A stretch of 35,710 nucleotides of DNA from Oxalobacteraceae bacterium (GTDB lineage: Bacteria > Pseudomonadota > Gammaproteobacteria > Burkholderiales > Burkholderiaceae_D): NCBI GenBank assembly GCA_027490465.1, contig JAIXXZ010000106.1:1-35710 (forward strand), given 5' to 3'. The translations under genes were made by a program, and so were the position numbers. A model generated the notes under the pieces. It saw nothing but the letters and a program-made list of their open reading frames with translations. It had not been told where the DNA came from and made no database searches. This document shows, piece by piece, positions 2,683 to 11,935 of the stretch (position 1 is its first letter; each line of letters starts with the position of its first letter).

Positions 2683-3657
2683 CTATGCCCGTGACAGAGC
2701 GTAAGCCTTCAGGCGTGGTGTCATGACCCATTTGTAGAGGGGCGGCAGCATCGCCAGTACCGACATGCCTGCATAACCGGTTGGCATTTGAGGCGAGCCC
2801 GGAGAGCGGTAGAGCTCGTCGCAAGCCAGCGAAGGCTCGGTGTGATGCGCTGCATGGCGCGGCAGATTGAACAGCATGGCATCGGCGACGAGATTGGCGC
2901 AGTCCCAAGTGTGAGCAATTCCCATGCGCTCGGGCTTGCCGTTGATTTCGGTGCGCTGCAATCCCCAATGTTCTACATAGTCGATACTGCCGACCAGCAG
3001 CAGCGCGAATGCCGCCTGTATCCCGCAAAACACCAACGTCTTGATGCCGCCCATCGCAAACATCAGCGCATACAGCAGGCAAGTCGCCATGAGCAGCGCG
3101 AGTGCCTCATTCCATCGGCCGGGCTGTGCGCGAGAGAGGCGCACAGCATCCGTGAATACACCGTAAAAATAACGCGGCAGGAAAGTCCATAGTCCTTCGT
3201 GCAGCCGCGCGGTGGCAGGATCGTTGTACGTAGCAGCAGCCCGGTGATGACCGCGATTGTGCTCGATGGCGTAGTGCCCATAAGCGACCGAGAGCAGCAG
3301 CAGCCGCGCCAACACGCGATCGGGCAGCGCACGCCGATGGCCCAGCTCGTGGGCCAGTACGATGCCAATACCACCCAGGATATAACCGCACGACAGCGCA
3401 AGCCACACCAGACCCCACCAATCCAGCGTCGGCGCTTGCGTGGCCAGCCCGAGGCTGATGAGGATGACAAGCGCCAGAATCAGTCGGGGAAAACCCTGGC
3501 CCCAGCGCAGGTTTCGATTGGCGTTTGTGCCGGGACCTACCCACCATTCCGCAATGGGCAGTACGACCGCTGCAATAACGACGGTCAGCCCAAACCAGCC
3601 CGAGACCCAAGCAAGGAGCGGCGAGATCGTGAATGCGAGAGGCAGGATCAGGTGCAT
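2683..3657 (-). CDS. AlkB-like alkane 1-monooxygenase / membrane fatty-acid desaturase family
   Basis: A 324-residue integral membrane di-iron enzyme. The three histidine motifs are present: HELGH (103-107), EHNRGHH (132-138) and RHAAHH (267-272), together with the AlkB signature DYVEHWGLQR (227-235), the counterpart of NYVEHYGL in alkane hydroxylases. This separates it from ordinary desaturases. About four to six hydrophobic segments are visible (residues 5-35, 57-73, 80-103, 185-225). It is shorter than typical AlkB (about 380-400 residues). AlkB enzymes hydroxylate terminal carbons of alkanes using electrons from rubredoxin; no rubredoxin or rubredoxin reductase gene is visible in the window. 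The exact substrate is uncertain. Confidence 0.82.
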   Translation of the reverse strand: MHLILPLAFTISPLLAWVSGWFGLTVVIAAVVLPIAEWWVGPGTNANRNLRWGQGFPRLILALVILISLGLATQAPTLDWWGLVWLALSCGYILGGIGIVLAHELGHRRALPDRVLARLLLLSVAYGHYAIEHNRGHHRAAATYNDPATARLHEGLWTFLPRYFYGVFTDAVRLSRAQPGRWNEALALLMATCLLYALMFAMGGIKTLVFCGIQAAFALLLVGSIDYVEHWGLQRTEINGKPERMGIAHTWDCANLVADAMLFNLPRHAAHHTEPSLACDELYRSPGSPQMPTGYAGMSVLAMLPPLYKWVMTPRLKAYALSRA

Positions 3658-3992: not shown

Positions 3993-5429
3993 ATGAAAAT
4001 AACAAGAATTTTTTTTCGGTGCACGCTACTTTTAATTTCTCTGAGTTTGGCCGGTTGCGCCGGCATGTCGAATGACAGTAAAAACCAGCTACTGAAGCTG
4101 CGTGCTGAGTCGAATTTCGAGGGCGCCGCGCAGCTTTATCTGACCAAAGATCAAAAGCCCAACTACAACGCGAATGATTTGCAGCAGACGCTCGAGGCTG
4201 CCAAGGCTTTCCATGACGCCGGACGATGGAAAGACAGTAATGATGCATTCACGCGCGCGCACAACCTGATGCCCTGGAAAGAAGATACGGTCGATACACC
4301 AAAAGAGGTCGTTGATCTCATTGCAACGACAATGACGAGCAGTAGTTTTGGGCCTTATCAGGGGAAAGTTTTTGAAGGCGGCATGATTGATTTTTACCGG
4401 GCGCTCAATCATTTGATGCTGAAAAATGAAAATGCTCGCGTATCCTTCAATCGTCTTCAGGAGCGCCAAAGGAATGCTGTAGCGCAGCTTGGTGCCTTCT
4501 CTCGTGCCTCGGCCAACGGCGCTGCAGCCGGTGTGCAGGAAGCGCAAAAGACGGGTGCCGGTGTGGGTACGGATAAAATCCAAAACGAGCTTGCGCGTGG
4601 CACGAGCAAGATCAAACCGGGCATCATGATGTCCGAAATACGCAATTCGGCGGGTGATGTCATGTCGGCATTGTTCCGTTCGACTTCCGCTGATCCGCAA
4701 GACCATCAGGATCCCAGAATCCAGTCCATGTTGGCTGCTGCTGGCGAGAGCGCGGCGTCGCAAGAGGGCAAGGCGCTTGTCACGAAGCTCAAGCAGGACC
4801 TCGCAACTAAAAACGGCAGTATGAACAACTTTGTCATCGTCTTGTACGAGGATGGCAACGGTCCTGGTTTTGATGAATTCAGGCTGGACCTGCCGCTGTA
4901 TCTGGTATCGGACAAGGTGCTGTACAGTGGCATTGCGCTACCGGAGTTTCGGGAGGGGCAGAGTGCCGGTGGACGGCTTCTGGTGGGCGAAACAGCGGTC
5001 CCGACGTCTCTTCTGACTGACATGAACCGTATCGCTGGCCTGGAGTTCGACAAGTCTTACGAAGGCGTGGTTACCAAGGCGATTGTGTCAACCATGATCA
5101 AAACGGCTGCTCAGTACGCGGCTAACGAGGCAATCGATCAGCAAGTGGAGAAGAATAAGCTGGATCCACTGGCGGGTGCATTGCTGCAGATTGGTACGGC
5201 AGCAACGCAGGCGGCGACCACCCAAGCAGACACTCGGGCCTGGCGCAATCTTCCCAATACGATACAAATTGCGATTGTCAACCGCCCTGCATCAGGTAGT
5301 CTGCCGCTGTTTACCGCAACGCGTGAGCTGGTCGGTAACGCGTCGGTAGCGGAGGAGGGTAATTACCTGGTGCTCGTCAAGGCGGCCAGTCCTCAAGCCA
5401 AACCTGTTTTTTATGTAGCAAAGCTTTGA
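3993..5429 (+). CDS. COG3014-family outer-membrane-type lipoprotein
   Basis: A 478-residue lipoprotein: signal peptide with a lipobox LAGC, so Cys22 would be acylated. The next residue is Ala, not Asp, which favours outer-membrane sorting. The N-terminal half is helical and TPR-like (LRAESNFEGAAQLYL, AAKAFHDAGRWKDSNDAFTRA). The segment FEGGMIDFYRALNHLMLKNE and the following NENARVSFNRLQERQ is the pattern I associate with COG3014 proteins, which have no assigned function. It is the first gene of a six-gene plus-strand series and precedes an LpoB-like lipoprotein by 22 bases, suggesting an operon. A role in envelope assembly or peptidoglycan control is inferred from the neighbours only. Confidence 0.75.
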   Translation: MKITRIFFRCTLLLISLSLAGCAGMSNDSKNQLLKLRAESNFEGAAQLYLTKDQKPNYNANDLQQTLEAAKAFHDAGRWKDSNDAFTRAHNLMPWKEDTVDTPKEVVDLIATTMTSSSFGPYQGKVFEGGMIDFYRALNHLMLKNENARVSFNRLQERQRNAVAQLGAFSRASANGAAAGVQEAQKTGAGVGTDKIQNELARGTSKIKPGIMMSEIRNSAGDVMSALFRSTSADPQDHQDPRIQSMLAAAGESAASQEGKALVTKLKQDLATKNGSMNNFVIVLYEDGNGPGFDEFRLDLPLYLVSDKVLYSGIALPEFREGQSAGGRLLVGETAVPTSLLTDMNRIAGLEFDKSYEGVVTKAIVSTMIKTAAQYAANEAIDQQVEKNKLDPLAGALLQIGTAATQAATTQADTRAWRNLPNTIQIAIVNRPASGSLPLFTATRELVGNASVAEEGNYLVLVKAASPQAKPVFYVAKL

Positions 5430-5451
5430 TTATTTGAACGGATAACACATC

Positions 5452-6057
5452 ATGGAAAAATTCATCAGAAGAGTCTGTCTGCTGGCCCTGCCGCTTTTGC
5501 TCACTGCGTGCGCGTCGAACGTAGTGACATCGAACCCCCGGGCAAGCAAGGACGGTATAAATACCTTTGGTCTAACGACGGTTGATTTCGAGTTCGCTGC
5601 CAAAAAGTCGCTCGACGAGTTCATGATGTCTCCCTGGCTGGCAAAAAAAGAGGGTCGCTGGCTCGTTCAAATCGGTAATGTTCGTAACGAAACGACGCAG
5701 GAGGTCGATACCAAACGCCTCACGCAGCGGATGATGAGTCACATGACGCGTAACGGTAAATTCGCCTTCTCCTCGGTCGGCGGAAGTCTGGCAGACAGCA
5801 ACGTAAAAGATTACCGGCAGCTCGAGAATTCTGATCTCTACGATCAGGATACTGGCGCAAAAGGAAAAGCAATTAAGCCTGACCTCTCTATGGTTGGCGA
5901 GATATCTCAAACCACCAACGTCAGCGCTGATCGCTCAAAGCAGCAGTTGGAGTATGAATTTCGGTTGCGGGTGACCGATCTTGCCTTGGGGGTGATTGTC
6001 TTTGATTCGCTGGTACCTATCGATAAGCTGGGCTCCAACCAGAATTTTTCCTGGTAA
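5452..6057 (+). CDS. LpoB-like lipoprotein (penicillin-binding-protein activator family)
   Basis: A 201-residue lipoprotein. The signal peptide ends in a lipobox LTAC with acylated Cys20. The body carries the LpoB/YcfM pattern: GRWLVQIGNVRNETTQEVDTK, a helix with MMSHMTRNGKFAF, and PDLSMVGEISQ followed by EYEFRLRVTDL. LpoB of E. coli is an outer-membrane lipoprotein that reaches through the periplasm to stimulate the peptidoglycan synthase PBP1b. The sequence here lacks the long disordered Pro/Gln-rich linker typical of enterobacterial LpoB, so PBP activation should not be assumed; many LpoB-like proteins sit beside CsgG-like genes, as here. Confidence 0.8.
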   Translation: MEKFIRRVCLLALPLLLTACASNVVTSNPRASKDGINTFGLTTVDFEFAAKKSLDEFMMSPWLAKKEGRWLVQIGNVRNETTQEVDTKRLTQRMMSHMTRNGKFAFSSVGGSLADSNVKDYRQLENSDLYDQDTGAKGKAIKPDLSMVGEISQTTNVSADRSKQQLEYEFRLRVTDLALGVIVFDSLVPIDKLGSNQNFSW

Positions 6058-6093
6058 GCCCGCCGTTTAAAGCTTTTGGAAATCGATACGGCC

Positions 6094-7341
6094 ATGGAAA
6101 CTTCTGTCCGCTCTTGTGTTACGCGCTTTCTGATGTTGTGGTGTCTCGCCTGTGGTTTGGCTAACGCCCAGGTTCAGGAGGCGGAGATGAGTGCCGAAGG
6201 GCGAGGGGCAACCCGGGCACTGGCGATTCTCGATGGTTTGTCCAATGCGACCGCACAGGCATTCGGTTTTACCCTGCAGTCGTCCACGCGGCAGAGCGTA
6301 GCCTCCGCAGAGCTACTGGTCGATGACATGCAGTCCTCTGCTTTGCTCGAGCAGTTCAACAAGGCGATTGCCAAGCAGGTCAGCACCGACAGGTCTCGTC
6401 CTGTCACAGGTTATCGGGTCAACTCGGCAGAGGAATCAGCGAACGGTCGATGGATCGCCAATGTCACGATTCGCTATGCCACTTATGCGAAACCCGGTGC
6501 TGACTCCAACCGTCGTACCCTCATTATTGCGAGTACTTCGAAACAGTATCCTCAGGCGGCACTTGAGGCAGTCGAGCAGGCAGTGGTGGCATCTCGTCGT
6601 TTCGATGTACTCACGCGCAGTCACAACGCAGTATTCGAGCAGGAAAAGTTGTTCATCACCGGGCCAGACGCTTCGCGTGTCGAGGTGGCGCGGCTCTCAG
6701 GCGCGAGTGGAGCAGATTATGTGCTGATCATCGATCTGCAGGATCTCGAGGTACAAAACAACATCCGCGAAGTTATCAAGATGTCGGATGAAGTCATTGT
6801 CTCTAGCAAAGTGTCGGGTACGCTTCGTCTGCGCATCATGGAATTCACCAGCCGCAAGATCAAGTGGGTGGGTACTCAGGCCTTTGCCGAAACTCTGAAA
6901 GGCCGCACACAGATCACCAGCGACGTGCTTGCAAAAAATTTATCAACTGCTGCACGCAAGCTGGTGTCGGGTATGGTGGAGACGATTTTTCCGATTCGCG
7001 TGGTTCGACGCGATGGCAACATGCTCGTGCTGAACCGGGGTGAGGGATCCATTGATCAAGGCGAGCAGCTGTCGGTGTTCGTGCTGGGAGAGGATTTGCG
7101 TGACCCGCAGTCCGGCGAGTCGCTCGGACGCATGGAGACCCACGTAGCGACCGGGACTGTTATCGAAGTAAAGCCGAAGTACGCCATCTTGCGACTGACC
7201 TCGGCGTTATCAGCTGCTGACAGCGCTGAACTTCTGGTGAGATCACAACTGAGCAAAGAGACTACGCCAGCACCCAATCGCAAGCGGGATGCTACCGCCG
7301 AGGGCAGGGAGCGGGGTCGCTCACTGCTCAATGACTACTAA
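6094..7341 (+). CDS. CsgG/FlgT-like periplasmic protein
   Basis: I chose the ATG at 6094 (415 residues), which starts a clean signal peptide cleaved near ANAQ; a TTG at 6076 would add six residues. The middle has a CsgG-type half-barrel pattern (EQAVVASRRFDVLTRS, then GASGADYVLIIDLQDLEVQ and KVSGTLRLRIMEFTSRKIKW). The C-terminus (VLNRGEGSIDQGEQLSVFV, then DPQSGESLGRMETHVATG) matches the small beta domain found after CsgG-like domains and in FlgT. CsgG itself is a lipoprotein pore; this protein has no lipobox, so a soluble periplasmic or surface partner is more likely. It lies 36 bases after the LpoB-like gene, in the same direction. Confidence 0.65.
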   Translation: METSVRSCVTRFLMLWCLACGLANAQVQEAEMSAEGRGATRALAILDGLSNATAQAFGFTLQSSTRQSVASAELLVDDMQSSALLEQFNKAIAKQVSTDRSRPVTGYRVNSAEESANGRWIANVTIRYATYAKPGADSNRRTLIIASTSKQYPQAALEAVEQAVVASRRFDVLTRSHNAVFEQEKLFITGPDASRVEVARLSGASGADYVLIIDLQDLEVQNNIREVIKMSDEVIVSSKVSGTLRLRIMEFTSRKIKWVGTQAFAETLKGRTQITSDVLAKNLSTAARKLVSGMVETIFPIRVVRRDGNMLVLNRGEGSIDQGEQLSVFVLGEDLRDPQSGESLGRMETHVATGTVIEVKPKYAILRLTSALSAADSAELLVRSQLSKETTPAPNRKRDATAEGRERGRSLLNDY

Positions 7342-7364
7342 CAAGAACTTTCGAGTCGTATGCC

Positions 7365-8756
7365 ATGAATCCCAAAATCATTAGTCGCGTCGCGACGTTT
7401 TTCGCGATCACACCGCTCTTCTTGCTGCAGCCCGCGCTGGCGCAAGACGCACCTTCAGAATCGCAGGTTTCAGCCGCCGAGGCAGACAATGCACTCAATC
7501 GCCTCAGCTTTGGTCAGTGGGTTAAGGATTTCGAAAAGCAGTTCGCACCGATAGGGCGTCCGGATCCGGCAACTGGCCGGATATTTTATAAATCCAAGGC
7601 AGTCGTGCGCGTGCCTACCAACCACCCTGGCTATGCGAAGGAACTGGTACTGGCCTACGAAAAAGCCATGCTGGAGTTGCAGGTCGCATTCATTTTGCAG
7701 AATTACGGCACGATTACAACCAAGCGAATCTCCGAATTCATGTCCGACGATTCGGAGAATGCGCGTAAGTTCGATGACAATAAAGCAGTCAGTCCAGCGC
7801 CGCCTAAGCGTAGCGGAACAAAAATGGACATGGACAAGCTGCTCGCCGACATCGACGCTCGGGTCGATCAGTATCTTGTGCAACAAGGGGAGTCGCGTGA
7901 CAAAGTATCACGCATGTCGATACCCGAGAAAAAACAGTTATTCCGGAATAATCTGATCCGGGAAACCGTGAAAACTGCGGTACAGAACATGCAGGGACTG
8001 GTGCCCGTTCAGACCCGTCTGTTCACGCTGTCGACCCCGAATGGTGAACGTACACAGATTGGTATCATCGCCGTTCAATCTGAAAAAACCCGGCAGTTTG
8101 CAGAAGATATCCGCATGCAAAGGACCTCAATGGTCAAGGGGTCTGGTAAAGCCATTGACGAGTATTTGCCCAAGACTGATGCCGAGTTGCTCAATGAATT
8201 TGGTTTTCGTTTCGCCTACGACGAGAATGGACACCCCATGCTGATCTCATACGGCCGCTGGGGAGTTGCGTCAGAAAACCCGAATCCCACGCGACATTTG
8301 ATGAACGTTGAAAATGCACAGAGAACGGCCCAGACGCTGGCAGAAGCGTGGATTGCTGAATTTGCCGGTACGCGATTGCAAGTACTTGATGCACGCATGC
8401 AGGGATCAGTGATGGAAGAAATTGCCACTCGCATTACACACTACGAAAACTCGGAAAAAATCGGTACGGAGGATGCGATTGAAGATATCGGTAATACGAT
8501 AGACAAGAGTCTTCGTTCGGCTAAATCGGATACCACGATCAGCCTCAAAGGTACTTCCGAGATCAAAGTCTGGGAAGAAAAAGATTCGTCTGGTCAGATC
8601 CATGTGGGCTCCATCATTACCTGGACGGCGGCCCAATTGAACAATGCACAGAATATCGAGCGAAACGGTACGGCTACGAACACGAACACCAACAACGGAC
8701 CCACCGTGAAAGACAATCGCGGATCGCGTGTTGTAAATTCCAAGGATGACTTTTGA
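7365..8756 (+). CDS. Secreted protein of unknown function, cluster member
   Basis: A 463-residue protein I do not recognise. A signal peptide is clear (residues 8-26, cleavage near ALAQD). Visible features: NRLSFGQWVKDFEKQF at the mature N-terminus, a helical block with AKELVLAYEKAMLELQVAF, a charged region (about 125-205), a sheet-like middle with RTQIGIIAVQSEKTRQFAE and an Asn/Thr-rich, low-complexity C-terminal tail (NGTATNTNTNNGPT). No catalytic motif or membrane helix is seen. It starts 23 bases after the CsgG-like gene and its end is directly followed by the caspase-like gene, so it should be part of the same transcript. Function unknown; a periplasmic partner of the neighbours is inferred. 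Confidence 0.7.
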   Translation: MNPKIISRVATFFAITPLFLLQPALAQDAPSESQVSAAEADNALNRLSFGQWVKDFEKQFAPIGRPDPATGRIFYKSKAVVRVPTNHPGYAKELVLAYEKAMLELQVAFILQNYGTITTKRISEFMSDDSENARKFDDNKAVSPAPPKRSGTKMDMDKLLADIDARVDQYLVQQGESRDKVSRMSIPEKKQLFRNNLIRETVKTAVQNMQGLVPVQTRLFTLSTPNGERTQIGIIAVQSEKTRQFAEDIRMQRTSMVKGSGKAIDEYLPKTDAELLNEFGFRFAYDENGHPMLISYGRWGVASENPNPTRHLMNVENAQRTAQTLAEAWIAEFAGTRLQVLDARMQGSVMEEIATRITHYENSEKIGTEDAIEDIGNTIDKSLRSAKSDTTISLKGTSEIKVWEEKDSSGQIHVGSIITWTAAQLNNAQNIERNGTATNTNTNNGPTVKDNRGSRVVNSKDDF

Positions 8757-8770
8757 GTAGCGGCACCCGC

Positions 8771-10105
8771 ATGTACCGATTTAGCCAGGTACCAGTTTTG
8801 GCAAGAATGATCTTGCTCGCTCTGGCGCTGACATCTGTTTCCGCAATCGCGCAGAGCACTCTGCCCGCGTGTACGGGGAAAAATTCATCCAGCTGGAGCG
8901 GCTGTACAGGCACGCTGGCAAGCGGCAGCACGATTCTATATTCCGGCGAATTCTTGAACGGTAAAAAACATGGCTATGGTGAGGAGATCATCCCCGAGGC
9001 CAACGGGAGCGATCGTTATGTAGGGCAGTTTCGCGAGGGACGTCGGCACGGCAGAGGCATTTACTATTTTGCGAATGGTGGCAAGTACGAAGGTGAACTT
9101 GTACGCGATCAGTTTACTGGGGACGGCAGCTTCGAGAGTCCTAATGGTGACCGCTATGTCGGGCAGTTTAGAAATGGGCAGTTTGCTGGTGAGGGTATCT
9201 TCACGTTTGCGAATGGCAATGTGGTGCAGGAAGGCGTTTTCGAGAACGGCAAATTTGTTCGCGCAGCCAAAATACAGCAGCGAAGCATCACGCCGGACAC
9301 AACAAGCCAGTTCAATGAAGCGAGCCGGCTCAATCCGGGTGCGCTCAAGGCTCTTCCTGAGCGCGATGCCGTTGCCATCATCATTGGTATTCAGTCTTAC
9401 AAGCATTTACCGCCGGCGCGGTTTGCAAATTCCGATGCCCGACTGTTTTCCGAGTATGCGCAGCGTCTCTTGGGTGTCAGACCAGACAAGATACGCTTGC
9501 TAACCGATGGCGATGCGGGCGAAATTGACATTGCGCGTGCATTCAGAAGCTGGCTGATGCGCAATGTGAACAAAGGCAAGACTGACGTGTATATTTTTTA
9601 CAGCGGTCACGGTCTGCCATCTGACGATGGAAAATCCTTGTATCTGCTGCCGCACAATGCTGATCGAGATTTCATAGATAAGACCGCGATCAATCAAGCA
9701 GAGTTGATTAGTCTGACCGAAGCGACAGGGGCCAAGACCGTTACCATGTTTATTGATAGCTGCTACAGCGGTCAAACTCGTAATGGCGATGCTTTATTGG
9801 CAAATGCCAGACCGGTAAGCTTGAAATCCAAAAGCTCGGGCTACCCCGCGACGTTTACTGTGCTAACCGCATCGGCACCCGATCAGATTTCCTGGTCCAG
9901 CGATGAATTGGGACACGGCATTTTCAGTTACTATCTGATGAAGGGCATGGGAGGCGAGGCGGATGGAAATCAGGATGGCAGGCTGACTTCCGGCGAGTTG
10001 CATGCCTATCTGCTGGACAAGGTCAATCGGCAAGCAGCCATTCTGAACAGAAAACAGCAGCCACAGCTAGTTGGTGATCCCGATCAGATTTTGATCAGCA
10101 AGTAA
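8771..10105 (+). CDS. Secreted MORN-repeat caspase-like (peptidase C14) protease with EF-hand-like loop
   Basis: The ATG at 8771 (444 residues) starts a signal peptide cleaved near AIAQS; a TTG at 8753 overlapping the previous stop is possible. The mature protein begins with a Cys-bearing segment (PACTG, SGCTG), then four to five MORN repeats (about residues 57-160, for example YVGQFREGRRHGRGIYYF). The caspase p20-like domain starts near 198 (DAVAIIIGIQSY). Its catalytic dyad is His280 in YSGHG and Cys331 in DSCYSG. Near the C-terminus, DGNQDGRLTSGE (398-409) has an EF-hand-like Ca2+-loop pattern. Bacterial C14 proteins usually cleave after Arg/Lys; substrate and activation here are unknown. 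The gene sits in a run of exported envelope proteins, and MORN repeats commonly act as surface or binding modules. Confidence 0.85.
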   Translation: MYRFSQVPVLARMILLALALTSVSAIAQSTLPACTGKNSSSWSGCTGTLASGSTILYSGEFLNGKKHGYGEEIIPEANGSDRYVGQFREGRRHGRGIYYFANGGKYEGELVRDQFTGDGSFESPNGDRYVGQFRNGQFAGEGIFTFANGNVVQEGVFENGKFVRAAKIQQRSITPDTTSQFNEASRLNPGALKALPERDAVAIIIGIQSYKHLPPARFANSDARLFSEYAQRLLGVRPDKIRLLTDGDAGEIDIARAFRSWLMRNVNKGKTDVYIFYSGHGLPSDDGKSLYLLPHNADRDFIDKTAINQAELISLTEATGAKTVTMFIDSCYSGQTRNGDALLANARPVSLKSKSSGYPATFTVLTASAPDQISWSSDELGHGIFSYYLMKGMGGEADGNQDGRLTSGELHAYLLDKVNRQAAILNRKQQPQLVGDPDQILISK

Positions 10106-10190
10106 TCAGATAGCCAGTCCTGCTGCATACACAGCGCGGTCTTCGATCGTGTGTCGTAGATTCGGGCCTAACTCTCCCATCAGGAAAATT

Positions 10191-10943
10191 ATGAGAACGG
10201 TAACAGCGCTTGTTTCCTTAGCCGTCTTTCCGACACTTGCACTCTTGTCTTCACCAGCATGGTCGGAGCAAAAAAATCCCTACAAGCGACCGCTTTGTAC
10301 AAAGGCTGATTATCCGCGCAAGCTGGGTGAAGAGCGCGCTGCAAACGGTTACGCATGCTGGGGTCGCTACATAGTGTCCTCGGACCCGATATATAAAAAC
10401 GGTGTCTACGAGGGAGAATTCCTGAATGGTAAGTTTCACGGTCTCGGTACTTATCAGTTCAAGGCAGGGAAGGGAAATCGTGGTGATCGCTATGTCGGCC
10501 AGTTCAATGAGGGTCAGATGACGTCCAAAGGTACGTATTACTTCGCGAATGGCGAGAAGTACATTGGAGATTTTCAAGGTAGTCAGCGCAGCGGTTTTGG
10601 TACTCAGTACATTAAAAACGGAGATCGTTTTTCAGGGGAATGGTTGAACGATCAGTTTCATGGCCAAGGAAAACTGACGTTTCCGTTTGGTGAGGTTTAC
10701 GAAGGTGCTTTTGCATTCGGTATGCGTAACGGTGAGGGCGTAATGAAATTTGCAGATGGATCCCTCTTCACCGGGACCTTCATAGCGGACCAACGTCATG
10801 GAATCGGCGTAGAGGTTCGCCGAGATGGCACGCAATTCGAGGGACTCTGGGTCGCTGACAAGCGAGAGGGTACTTTTATCGTAAAGCCCAAAAATGGTGG
10901 CAGCAGAGAGGTTCGGTTTGTTAAGGATAGAGTAGTCGAATAG
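10191..10943 (+). CDS. Secreted MORN-repeat protein
   Basis: I chose the ATG at 10191 (250 residues), preceded by AGGA five bases upstream and starting a signal peptide cleaved near AWSE; the longer GTG frame from 10149 is unlikely. After a Cys-containing N-terminal segment (LCTKADY, ACWGRY) the protein is about seven MORN repeats, for example YEGEFLNGKFHGLGTYQF and FSGEWLNDQFHGQGKLTF. There is no enzymatic domain. Its first repeats closely resemble those of the caspase-like protein upstream (both have EFLNGK.HG and DRYVGQF.EG), suggesting duplication. It ends the six-gene run; the 85-base gap before it is the largest in the run. Confidence 0.85.
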   Translation: MRTVTALVSLAVFPTLALLSSPAWSEQKNPYKRPLCTKADYPRKLGEERAANGYACWGRYIVSSDPIYKNGVYEGEFLNGKFHGLGTYQFKAGKGNRGDRYVGQFNEGQMTSKGTYYFANGEKYIGDFQGSQRSGFGTQYIKNGDRFSGEWLNDQFHGQGKLTFPFGEVYEGAFAFGMRNGEGVMKFADGSLFTGTFIADQRHGIGVEVRRDGTQFEGLWVADKREGTFIVKPKNGGSREVRFVKDRVVE

Positions 10944-11104
10944 ACATTTGACCAGTTCGTTCCATGGCGATCATATGGCAGGGGATTAACACGCTGTACC
11001 GCCAAACTGCGAAACGATACTGGCGCATCAGCTAGTATGCGGTCTGCGAGGAATACGCATTGCACAAGCGGCACCCTGTCCCCAAGAACAGGCTGCGCCC
11101 AACC

Positions 11105-11935
11105 ATGCATCGAATAATGAAAAAAATAGACCTTTCACCCTGGCGCATCCGGCATGGATCAGCGTGTGATTTACATGATTTCAGCACGCAGCCTGAAGGC
11201 CCATTGTCGCTCAATGAAGACGAAGTCAGGCAGCAGACACAAAAGCTATCTGCCCGCTTGAACAAGCTGCAGTCCAAATTGCATGCGGCGAACAGTCATG
11301 CTGTTCTGCTTGTCTTGCAGGGTATGGATACCTCGGGCAAGGACGGCGTGATACGCCATGTATTTGCAAACGTGAGTCCACTAGGTGTTCGCGCTGTGCC
11401 ATTTTCCGCACCGGCCGAGGCAGAATTGAAACACGATTTTTTGTGGCGCATTCATGGCAAGGTGCCGGCACGGGGTGAGCTCGTGATTTTCAATCGCAGT
11501 CATTACGAAGATGTGCTGGTCACTCGCGTTCACAAGCTCATCGACAAGACTACCTGCAGCAAGCGCTATGAGCATATTTCACATTTTGAGTCGCTATTGC
11601 ATGACAGCGGTACGACGGTAGTCAAGTGTTATCTGCACATCTCGAAGAGTGAGCAGAAAAAGCGACTGCAACAACGTATCGATGATCCCGACAAGCACTG
11701 GAAACTGCAGCCTTCAGATTTTTCAGATCGCAAGCTGTGGCCCAAATTTATCAGTGCTTACGAGGACACTATCTCGGCGACCAGTACCAAAAACGCGCCC
11801 TGGTACATCGTCCCGGCAGATTCCAAACCGCACCGGGATCTCTTCATTGCCACGCTGCTGGTACAAACACTGGAATTGATGGATCTCACAATGCCCAAGC
11901 CGAATTTCTCGTTGGACGATGTGATATTGACGTGA
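11105..11935 (+). CDS. ppk2: Polyphosphate kinase 2 family protein (PPK2)
   Basis: A 277-residue kinase from the ATG at 11105. The Walker A loop GMDTSGKDG is at 73-81 and the Walker-B-like NRSHYEDVLV at 130-139, both hallmarks of PPK2; the following helices carry the lid region (SEQKKRLQQRIDDPDKHWKL). PPK2 enzymes transfer phosphate from inorganic polyphosphate to nucleotides, so the enzyme would regenerate ADP/ATP or GTP in the cytoplasm. The single-domain length fits class I or III; which nucleotide is used cannot be read from the sequence. It stands alone on the plus strand, 161 bases after the MORN gene, and converges with glpK. Confidence 0.85.
   Translation: MHRIMKKIDLSPWRIRHGSACDLHDFSTQPEGPLSLNEDEVRQQTQKLSARLNKLQSKLHAANSHAVLLVLQGMDTSGKDGVIRHVFANVSPLGVRAVPFSAPAEAELKHDFLWRIHGKVPARGELVIFNRSHYEDVLVTRVHKLIDKTTCSKRYEHISHFESLLHDSGTTVVKCYLHISKSEQKKRLQQRIDDPDKHWKLQPSDFSDRKLWPKFISAYEDTISATSTKNAPWYIVPADSKPHRDLFIATLLVQTLELMDLTMPKPNFSLDDVILT

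Follow-up and report, generated by a model that had tools for sequence, protein, structure and literature searches.

An exported caspase encoded beside a COG3014-like and LpoB lipoprotein pair in one bacterial genus

A stretch of 35,710 nucleotides from an Oxalobacteraceae bacterium (contig C59 in an assembly of 3.03 Mb; hereafter the window) carries six adjacent genes for exported proteins, among which lipoproteins of the cell envelope stand next to a caspase. The original prediction, made from the letters alone, was that these genes form a single unit that matches no named system. This raises the question of whether the caspase belongs with its neighbors, and which of those neighbors belong with it. 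Literature searches uncovered, among the matches listed, neither a named system of this make-up nor a paper on the combination of a caspase with COG3014 and LpoB proteins. The comparisons described below do not favor a unit of six. What remains of interest, as judged from sequence, is that within one genus an exported caspase is apparently linked to the COG3014-LpoB pair, a linkage that recurs once in a different family.

Layout of the locus

All six plus-strand open reading frames were confirmed at positions 3993-10943. The first, g1 (3993..5429), encodes a lipoprotein that we take to be COG3014-like, although no search performed here returned this label, and the second, g2 (5452..6057), encodes a lipoprotein of the LpoB family. 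These are followed by g3 (6076..7341), whose exported product has a middle domain resembling CsgG, LpoB, and possibly FlgT_M and a C-terminal domain like that of the LysM-domain protein 6ve2_O; by g4 (7365..8756), for an exported DUF6844 protein related to Francisella FTT_1539c (PDB 4qvr); by g5 (8753..10105), for an exported MORN-repeat caspase; and by g6 (10149..10943), for an exported MORN-repeat protein. On the left, a fatty-acid desaturase gene (2683..3657, minus strand; PF00487) is oriented divergently, and on the right lies a gene for polyphosphate kinase 2, or PPK2 (11060..11935, plus strand; PF03976, E 2.5e-72). Both flanks are retained in genomes G002, G012, and G017. ARAGORN found no tRNA in the window.

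The predicted gaps of 14-85 bases were recovered when later ATG starts are used, which yield gaps that include 14 bases between g4 and g5 and 85 bases between g5 and g6; g5 and g4 share 4 bases when the first TTG of g5 serves as its start. Each product had also been called a lipoprotein or a signal-peptide protein. This is upheld by lipoboxes in g1 (LAGC) and g2 (LTAC), whereas g3 to g6 have no lipobox pattern within their first 45 residues and N-termini that look signal-peptide-like by eye only. Between positions 3500 and 12100, promoter-like sites (6 versus 5.9 by chance) and terminator-like sites (10 versus 9.1 by chance) occur at chance numbers, and thus a single transcript is neither supported nor contradicted. 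A foreign base composition for g1-g5 was considered and rejected, given that their G+C content of 52.8% is unremarkable beside the 55.7% of positions 13497-35710. Purifying selection acts on g1-g5, with dN/dS values of 0.03-0.14 for pairs among three or four genomes (three for g1, g2, and g4).

A widespread lipoprotein pair and its sporadic partners

The g1 protein has no Pfam match. Its predicted model comprises a TPR-like helical domain (about residues 25-275) and a C-terminal alpha/beta part, and a fold search returned only TPR-type neighbors, similar no further than in their general arrangement. We know of no role for COG3014 proteins. The identification of g2 as LpoB-like proved sound (PF13036, E 4.7e-26), and a profile of the g2 alignment matches solved LpoB (E 3.6e-7); its score of 97.2 bits is below the cut-off of 110.55 for TIGR02722, the NCBIfam equivalog for LpoB. 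Outside the genus, an LpoB gene is located within 1.5 kb of g1 on the same strand at 75 of 79 loci (76 of 80 with G018 added), and at least two of the four loci that lack a near LpoB lie at contig ends. The spacing between the two is often some 400 bases, a gap that in Azospirillum contains YcfL. These counts cover 33 of the 34 family-sample genomes with a g1 match outside the genus and 50 of 67 such genomes in the phylum sample, four DUF6844-type loci counted and the remainder being mostly weak matches. CsgG-like matches within 5 kb of g1 were found at only 4 of the 79 loci, one of them strong.

Although g4 had been described as unknown, it belongs to a named family: it exceeds the cut-off for DUF6844 (PF20891, E 3.5e-15) and has the fold of 4qvr. 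We are not aware of any role for DUF6844. PF20891 matches 5 of the 398 phylum-sample genomes, and a search with the g4 alignment (A1) detected the family in 8 of the 369 class-sample genomes, the window's genome being included both times. Ten DUF6844 loci outside the genus show the orders g1-g2-g4-g3 (four loci) and g2-g4-g3-g1 (three loci), or hold g4 and g3 only (three loci, one of which begins at a contig end). Thus g4 and the CsgG/FlgT-like g3 join the g1-g2 pair sporadically in distant Proteobacteria. Among four loci compared, the g1 closest to the genus (37% identical) is that of locus L024 (G061:C1 3495000-3514900), where the cluster is followed by a transposase and an LprI-FGE-sulfatase protein. 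Five of the six rows of alignment A1 end in DF, four of these in DDF, which might be a C-terminal interaction motif.

The assignment of g3 as CsgG-like is only partly sustained. The window's own protein matches neither CsgG nor any other Pfam family above cut-off, and g3 is CsgG-like by sequence through its relatives, of which 10 of 15 aligned members match CsgG and 9 of 15 match LpoB (E <= 0.01). FlgT_M is matched by one of the 15 (E 1.8e-10), a member other than the window's g3. The g3 profile matches 6ve2_O (E 3.7e-11), TsaP 3jc8 (E 0.013), and CsgG 4uv2 (E 0.041), and hhalign relates g3 to the LpoB alignment at 96%. The same program gave 2% for g4 with g3, and kinship between these two was rejected as unsupported.

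Variation of gene content within the genus

The full six-gene arrangement is present in 4 of 21 genomes of the genus (G000, G002, G012, and G018, the last over two contigs) and at no other locus examined; these four are also the only genus members with g4. In G012 the gene for g4 (G012:C44, L021 7323-8707) is split into three open pieces with intact neighbors, reflecting either decay or an assembly error. G014 carries g1-g2-g3-g5, with no g4, an N-terminally truncated g3, and a contig that ends inside g5. In G015 and G020 the caspase gene directly follows LpoB without g3 or g4, and the flanks differ, one of them being an aminotransferase-like gene as judged by eye.

The sister genome G017 argues against a unit of six. 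One of its contigs holds a hydrolase, the desaturase, g6, and PPK2, without g1-g5, and no g1 match exists in this genome, which is rated 82% complete. Of the genomes compared it is the closest to the cluster-bearing G002 (desaturase 97% and PPK2 94% identical). No clean insertion junction was discernible. Because g6 occupies this site without g1-g5, it seems to be separable from them and not to belong, and the six-gene unit was rejected. In four further genomes without the cluster (G016, G003, G010, and G004), a MORN-type match that is 28-33% identical lies near PPK2, and MORN-only matches are plentiful across the genus. Overall, the six genes are rarely neighbors elsewhere, but subsets of them do occur together.

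Linkage of the caspase to the pair

The g5 protein matches MORN and Peptidase_C14 in Pfam, the latter with E 3.1e-16 and 60.2 bits against a cut-off of 21.4. Its His/Cys dyad is intact, as had been predicted, with the motifs SGHG and DSCYSG; the cysteine is Cys337 from the TTG start and Cys331 from the ATG start. Both motifs also occur in the five other linked caspases that were seen complete. In G015 and G020 the linked caspase has no MORN repeats, which rules these repeats out as an essential part and weakens the role once proposed for them.

Two observations suggest that the caspase belongs with the pair. First, the genomes with a g5 orthologue are exactly the 7, out of 21, that carry g1; as best matches the other 14 yield paralogues (54% identical in G009) or weaker hits to caspase or MORN proteins, and G011 yields none. 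In six of the seven genomes g1 and the caspase share a contig; in G018 the assembly is interrupted at the cluster, and the two genes fall on different contigs. The margin of identity to g5 is thin, at 61-62% for the G015 and G020 caspases and up to 60% for paralogues, and therefore their orthology rests on the tree. From 57 caspase open reading frames found, 22 entered the main tree, in which a branch with support of 100/99 separates the six complete linked caspases from 16 genus paralogues. That tree excludes four distant sequences and the divergent paralogue L057; in a 27-row tree to which these were added, the linked caspases required 2 changes and came out together in only 20% of bootstrap trees. 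The incomplete G014 caspase is in neither tree. Second, the caspase keeps its place while g3 and g4 come and go. Thus the predicted association of a caspase with LpoB and COG3014 proteins extends beyond chance neighborhood within the genus, even though a unit of six is not supported.

The main rival to a functional association is a single ancestral event kept by linkage, in which one of many caspase paralogues landed beside the COG3014-LpoB pair once in the ancestor of the genus and was thereafter inherited with it while performing a job of its own, such as extracellular protein degradation. The link in the genus may indeed be one event, inherited once. The genome contains 12 Peptidase_C14 matches, and so a caspase neighbor by chance would be unremarkable. 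Furthermore, a caspase lies within 3 kb of COG3014 on the same strand at only 1 of 79 loci outside the genus and at none of the 10 DUF6844 loci there, including those of the three small genomes G492, G623, and G724, which implies that the core can do without one. (The caspase profile was first built from 3 sequences and later iterated to 42 open reading frames, and the DUF6844 loci were scanned with the latter.) In addition, the excerpted text of a survey (PMC4933709) speculates that betaproteobacterial metacaspases degrade extracellular proteins. Simple linkage is harder to reconcile with the retention of the caspase where the flanks differ and both g3 and g4 are gone, with its complete co-occurrence with g1 (7 of 7, and 0 of 14 elsewhere in the genus), and with the separate tree group of the linked caspases. 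We regard this history as possible, with a sizeable minority share of the probability.

The single case outside the genus is G227, a member of another family, where LpoB, COG3014, and caspase genes lie in this order on one strand, with 19 bases between the last two, and where the N-termini of all three proteins look lipoprotein-like by eye. Across the family, represented by five genomes, the search listed 18 further caspase places, and the three contigs examined among these have no g1 or LpoB match. Another family member, G175, has a weak COG3014-like match, with no caspase evident by eye in the 4.4 kb seen.

Caspase genes, many with MORN repeats, also form local groups of at least two per contig stretch at L075 (G000:C101), L076/L077 (G000:C92), and L082/L083 (G015), and some of these clustered proteins have a lipoprotein-type N-terminus by eye. 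Near the g1-g2-caspase genes, loci L074 (6002-9257, G020) and L073 (G015) are alike in carrying a TPR lipoprotein, a below-cut-off DUF4384 protein, and an opposite-strand DUF6502 gene. The DUF4384 protein was rejected as an operon partner in G020, given its score and the opposite-strand gene between it and the caspase.

An arginine-rich tail shared by g3 and two caspases

The final 14 residues of g3, encoded at 7297..7338 on the plus strand, form an Arg-rich tail that is near-constant across five genomes. The caspases of G015 and G020, the two genomes without g3 at the locus, carry a similar stretch in their prodomains. This stretch scores 50 against the G014 tail and 48 against the window's tail, versus a maximum of 24 in 40 other caspase pre-domains. 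Shuffled sequences reached the observed score in 0-2 of 5000 trials in four comparisons, a result that is stronger than that of BLASTP (E 0.31) and comes from a test run post hoc, with the motif already noticed. Most simply, a deletion would have joined the 3' end of g3 to the caspase gene, and retention of the fused motif suggests that it matters. A motif common to g3 and these caspases also counts against mere linkage. According to the excerpted text of one report, orthocaspases cleave after positively charged residues (PMC6426788), which makes the Arg-rich tail a natural candidate for a substrate or docking site. Variation within the genus marks this one short motif as a possible link.

A proposed function

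Variants within the genus with and without g3, g4, and MORN repeats point to COG3014, LpoB, and the caspase as the minimal unit, and the linkage hints that the caspase works on or with envelope machinery. We therefore propose that g1-g5 constitute an accessory cell-envelope unit with an exported caspase dedicated to the COG3014-LpoB complex, a proposal with about an even chance of being correct, whose substrate and mechanism are inferred. The lipoproteins g1 and g2 would form a scaffold, most likely at the outer membrane, with g3 and g4 as exported partners that come and go. Judging from its N-terminus, g5 would reach the periplasm or beyond, where, as co-occurrence and co-location suggest, it would be dedicated to the g1-g2 complex. 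Most probably it would cleave after basic residues in the manner of an orthocaspase, once g1-g2 or g3 delivers it to a substrate. For docking or cleavage, the leading candidate would be the Arg-rich g3 tail, or its counterpart in the prodomain of caspases from loci without g3. The g6 protein would be a bystander. To our knowledge, exported bacterial caspases have no established envelope substrate.

A more ambitious version, which we consider rather doubtful, has the complex sense the envelope through its TPR-like and LpoB parts and license the caspase as its dedicated effector. The Arg-rich tail of g3 would then serve as the switch or substrate, fused into the caspase in a sister lineage, and the pairing would have arisen again in G227.

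Other roles can be envisioned for the proteins of this locus. They could build a ring or scaffold analogous to the flagellar H-ring of Vibrio, with which they can be compared by LpoB-like, FlgT-like, and LPP20-like parts, and the caspase would then serve as the protease for quality control or maturation of this structure; this appears unlikely. A role in anti-phage defence or abortive infection, with the caspase as effector, is very improbable even though the PADLOC caspase model matches g5 (E 2.4e-13), because all six proteins have export-type N-termini that would place the protease outside the cytoplasm, and no other PADLOC model was matched among the six genes at E <= 0.1, with no known defence partners.

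Comparison with known systems

Several characterized or annotated systems resemble parts of the proposed accessory unit. With LpoB, the activator of PBP1b, g2 shares PF13036, though it misses the TIGR02722 cut-off, and stimulation of PBP1b by g2 is putative. Likeness to CsgG, LysM/TsaP-type proteins, and possibly FlgT lies in the middle and C-terminal domains of g3, by its relatives and profile, and the window's g3 differs from CsgG in having neither a lipobox nor a Pfam CsgG match of its own. Proteins with MORN repeats followed by a metacaspase have already been tabulated from aquatic bacteria, in a survey whose excerpted text mentions no LpoB or COG3014 neighborhood (PMC4933709).

A parallel in gene order is the proteobacterial locus of COG3014-like, YcfL, and LpoB genes, exemplified by plasmid p1 of Azospirillum sp. 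TSH100, where genes for a hypothetical protein, YcfL, LpoB, DUF6844, and a second hypothetical protein follow one another on one strand. Homologues of g1 (24.5%) and g4 (23.3%) accompany lpoB there, and the last hypothetical gene, likened by position alone, stands where g3 homologues stand elsewhere. This locus differs in that YcfL separates the g1 homologue from lpoB, DUF6844 directly follows lpoB, and the annotation of the 16 kb covered includes neither a caspase nor a MORN gene. Finally, g4 shares both family and fold with Francisella FTT_1539c (PDB 4qvr), a protein described in the excerpted literature as an immunodominant antigen (PMC4207810) that is recognized by sera of mice treated with outer-membrane vesicles (PMC10963506).
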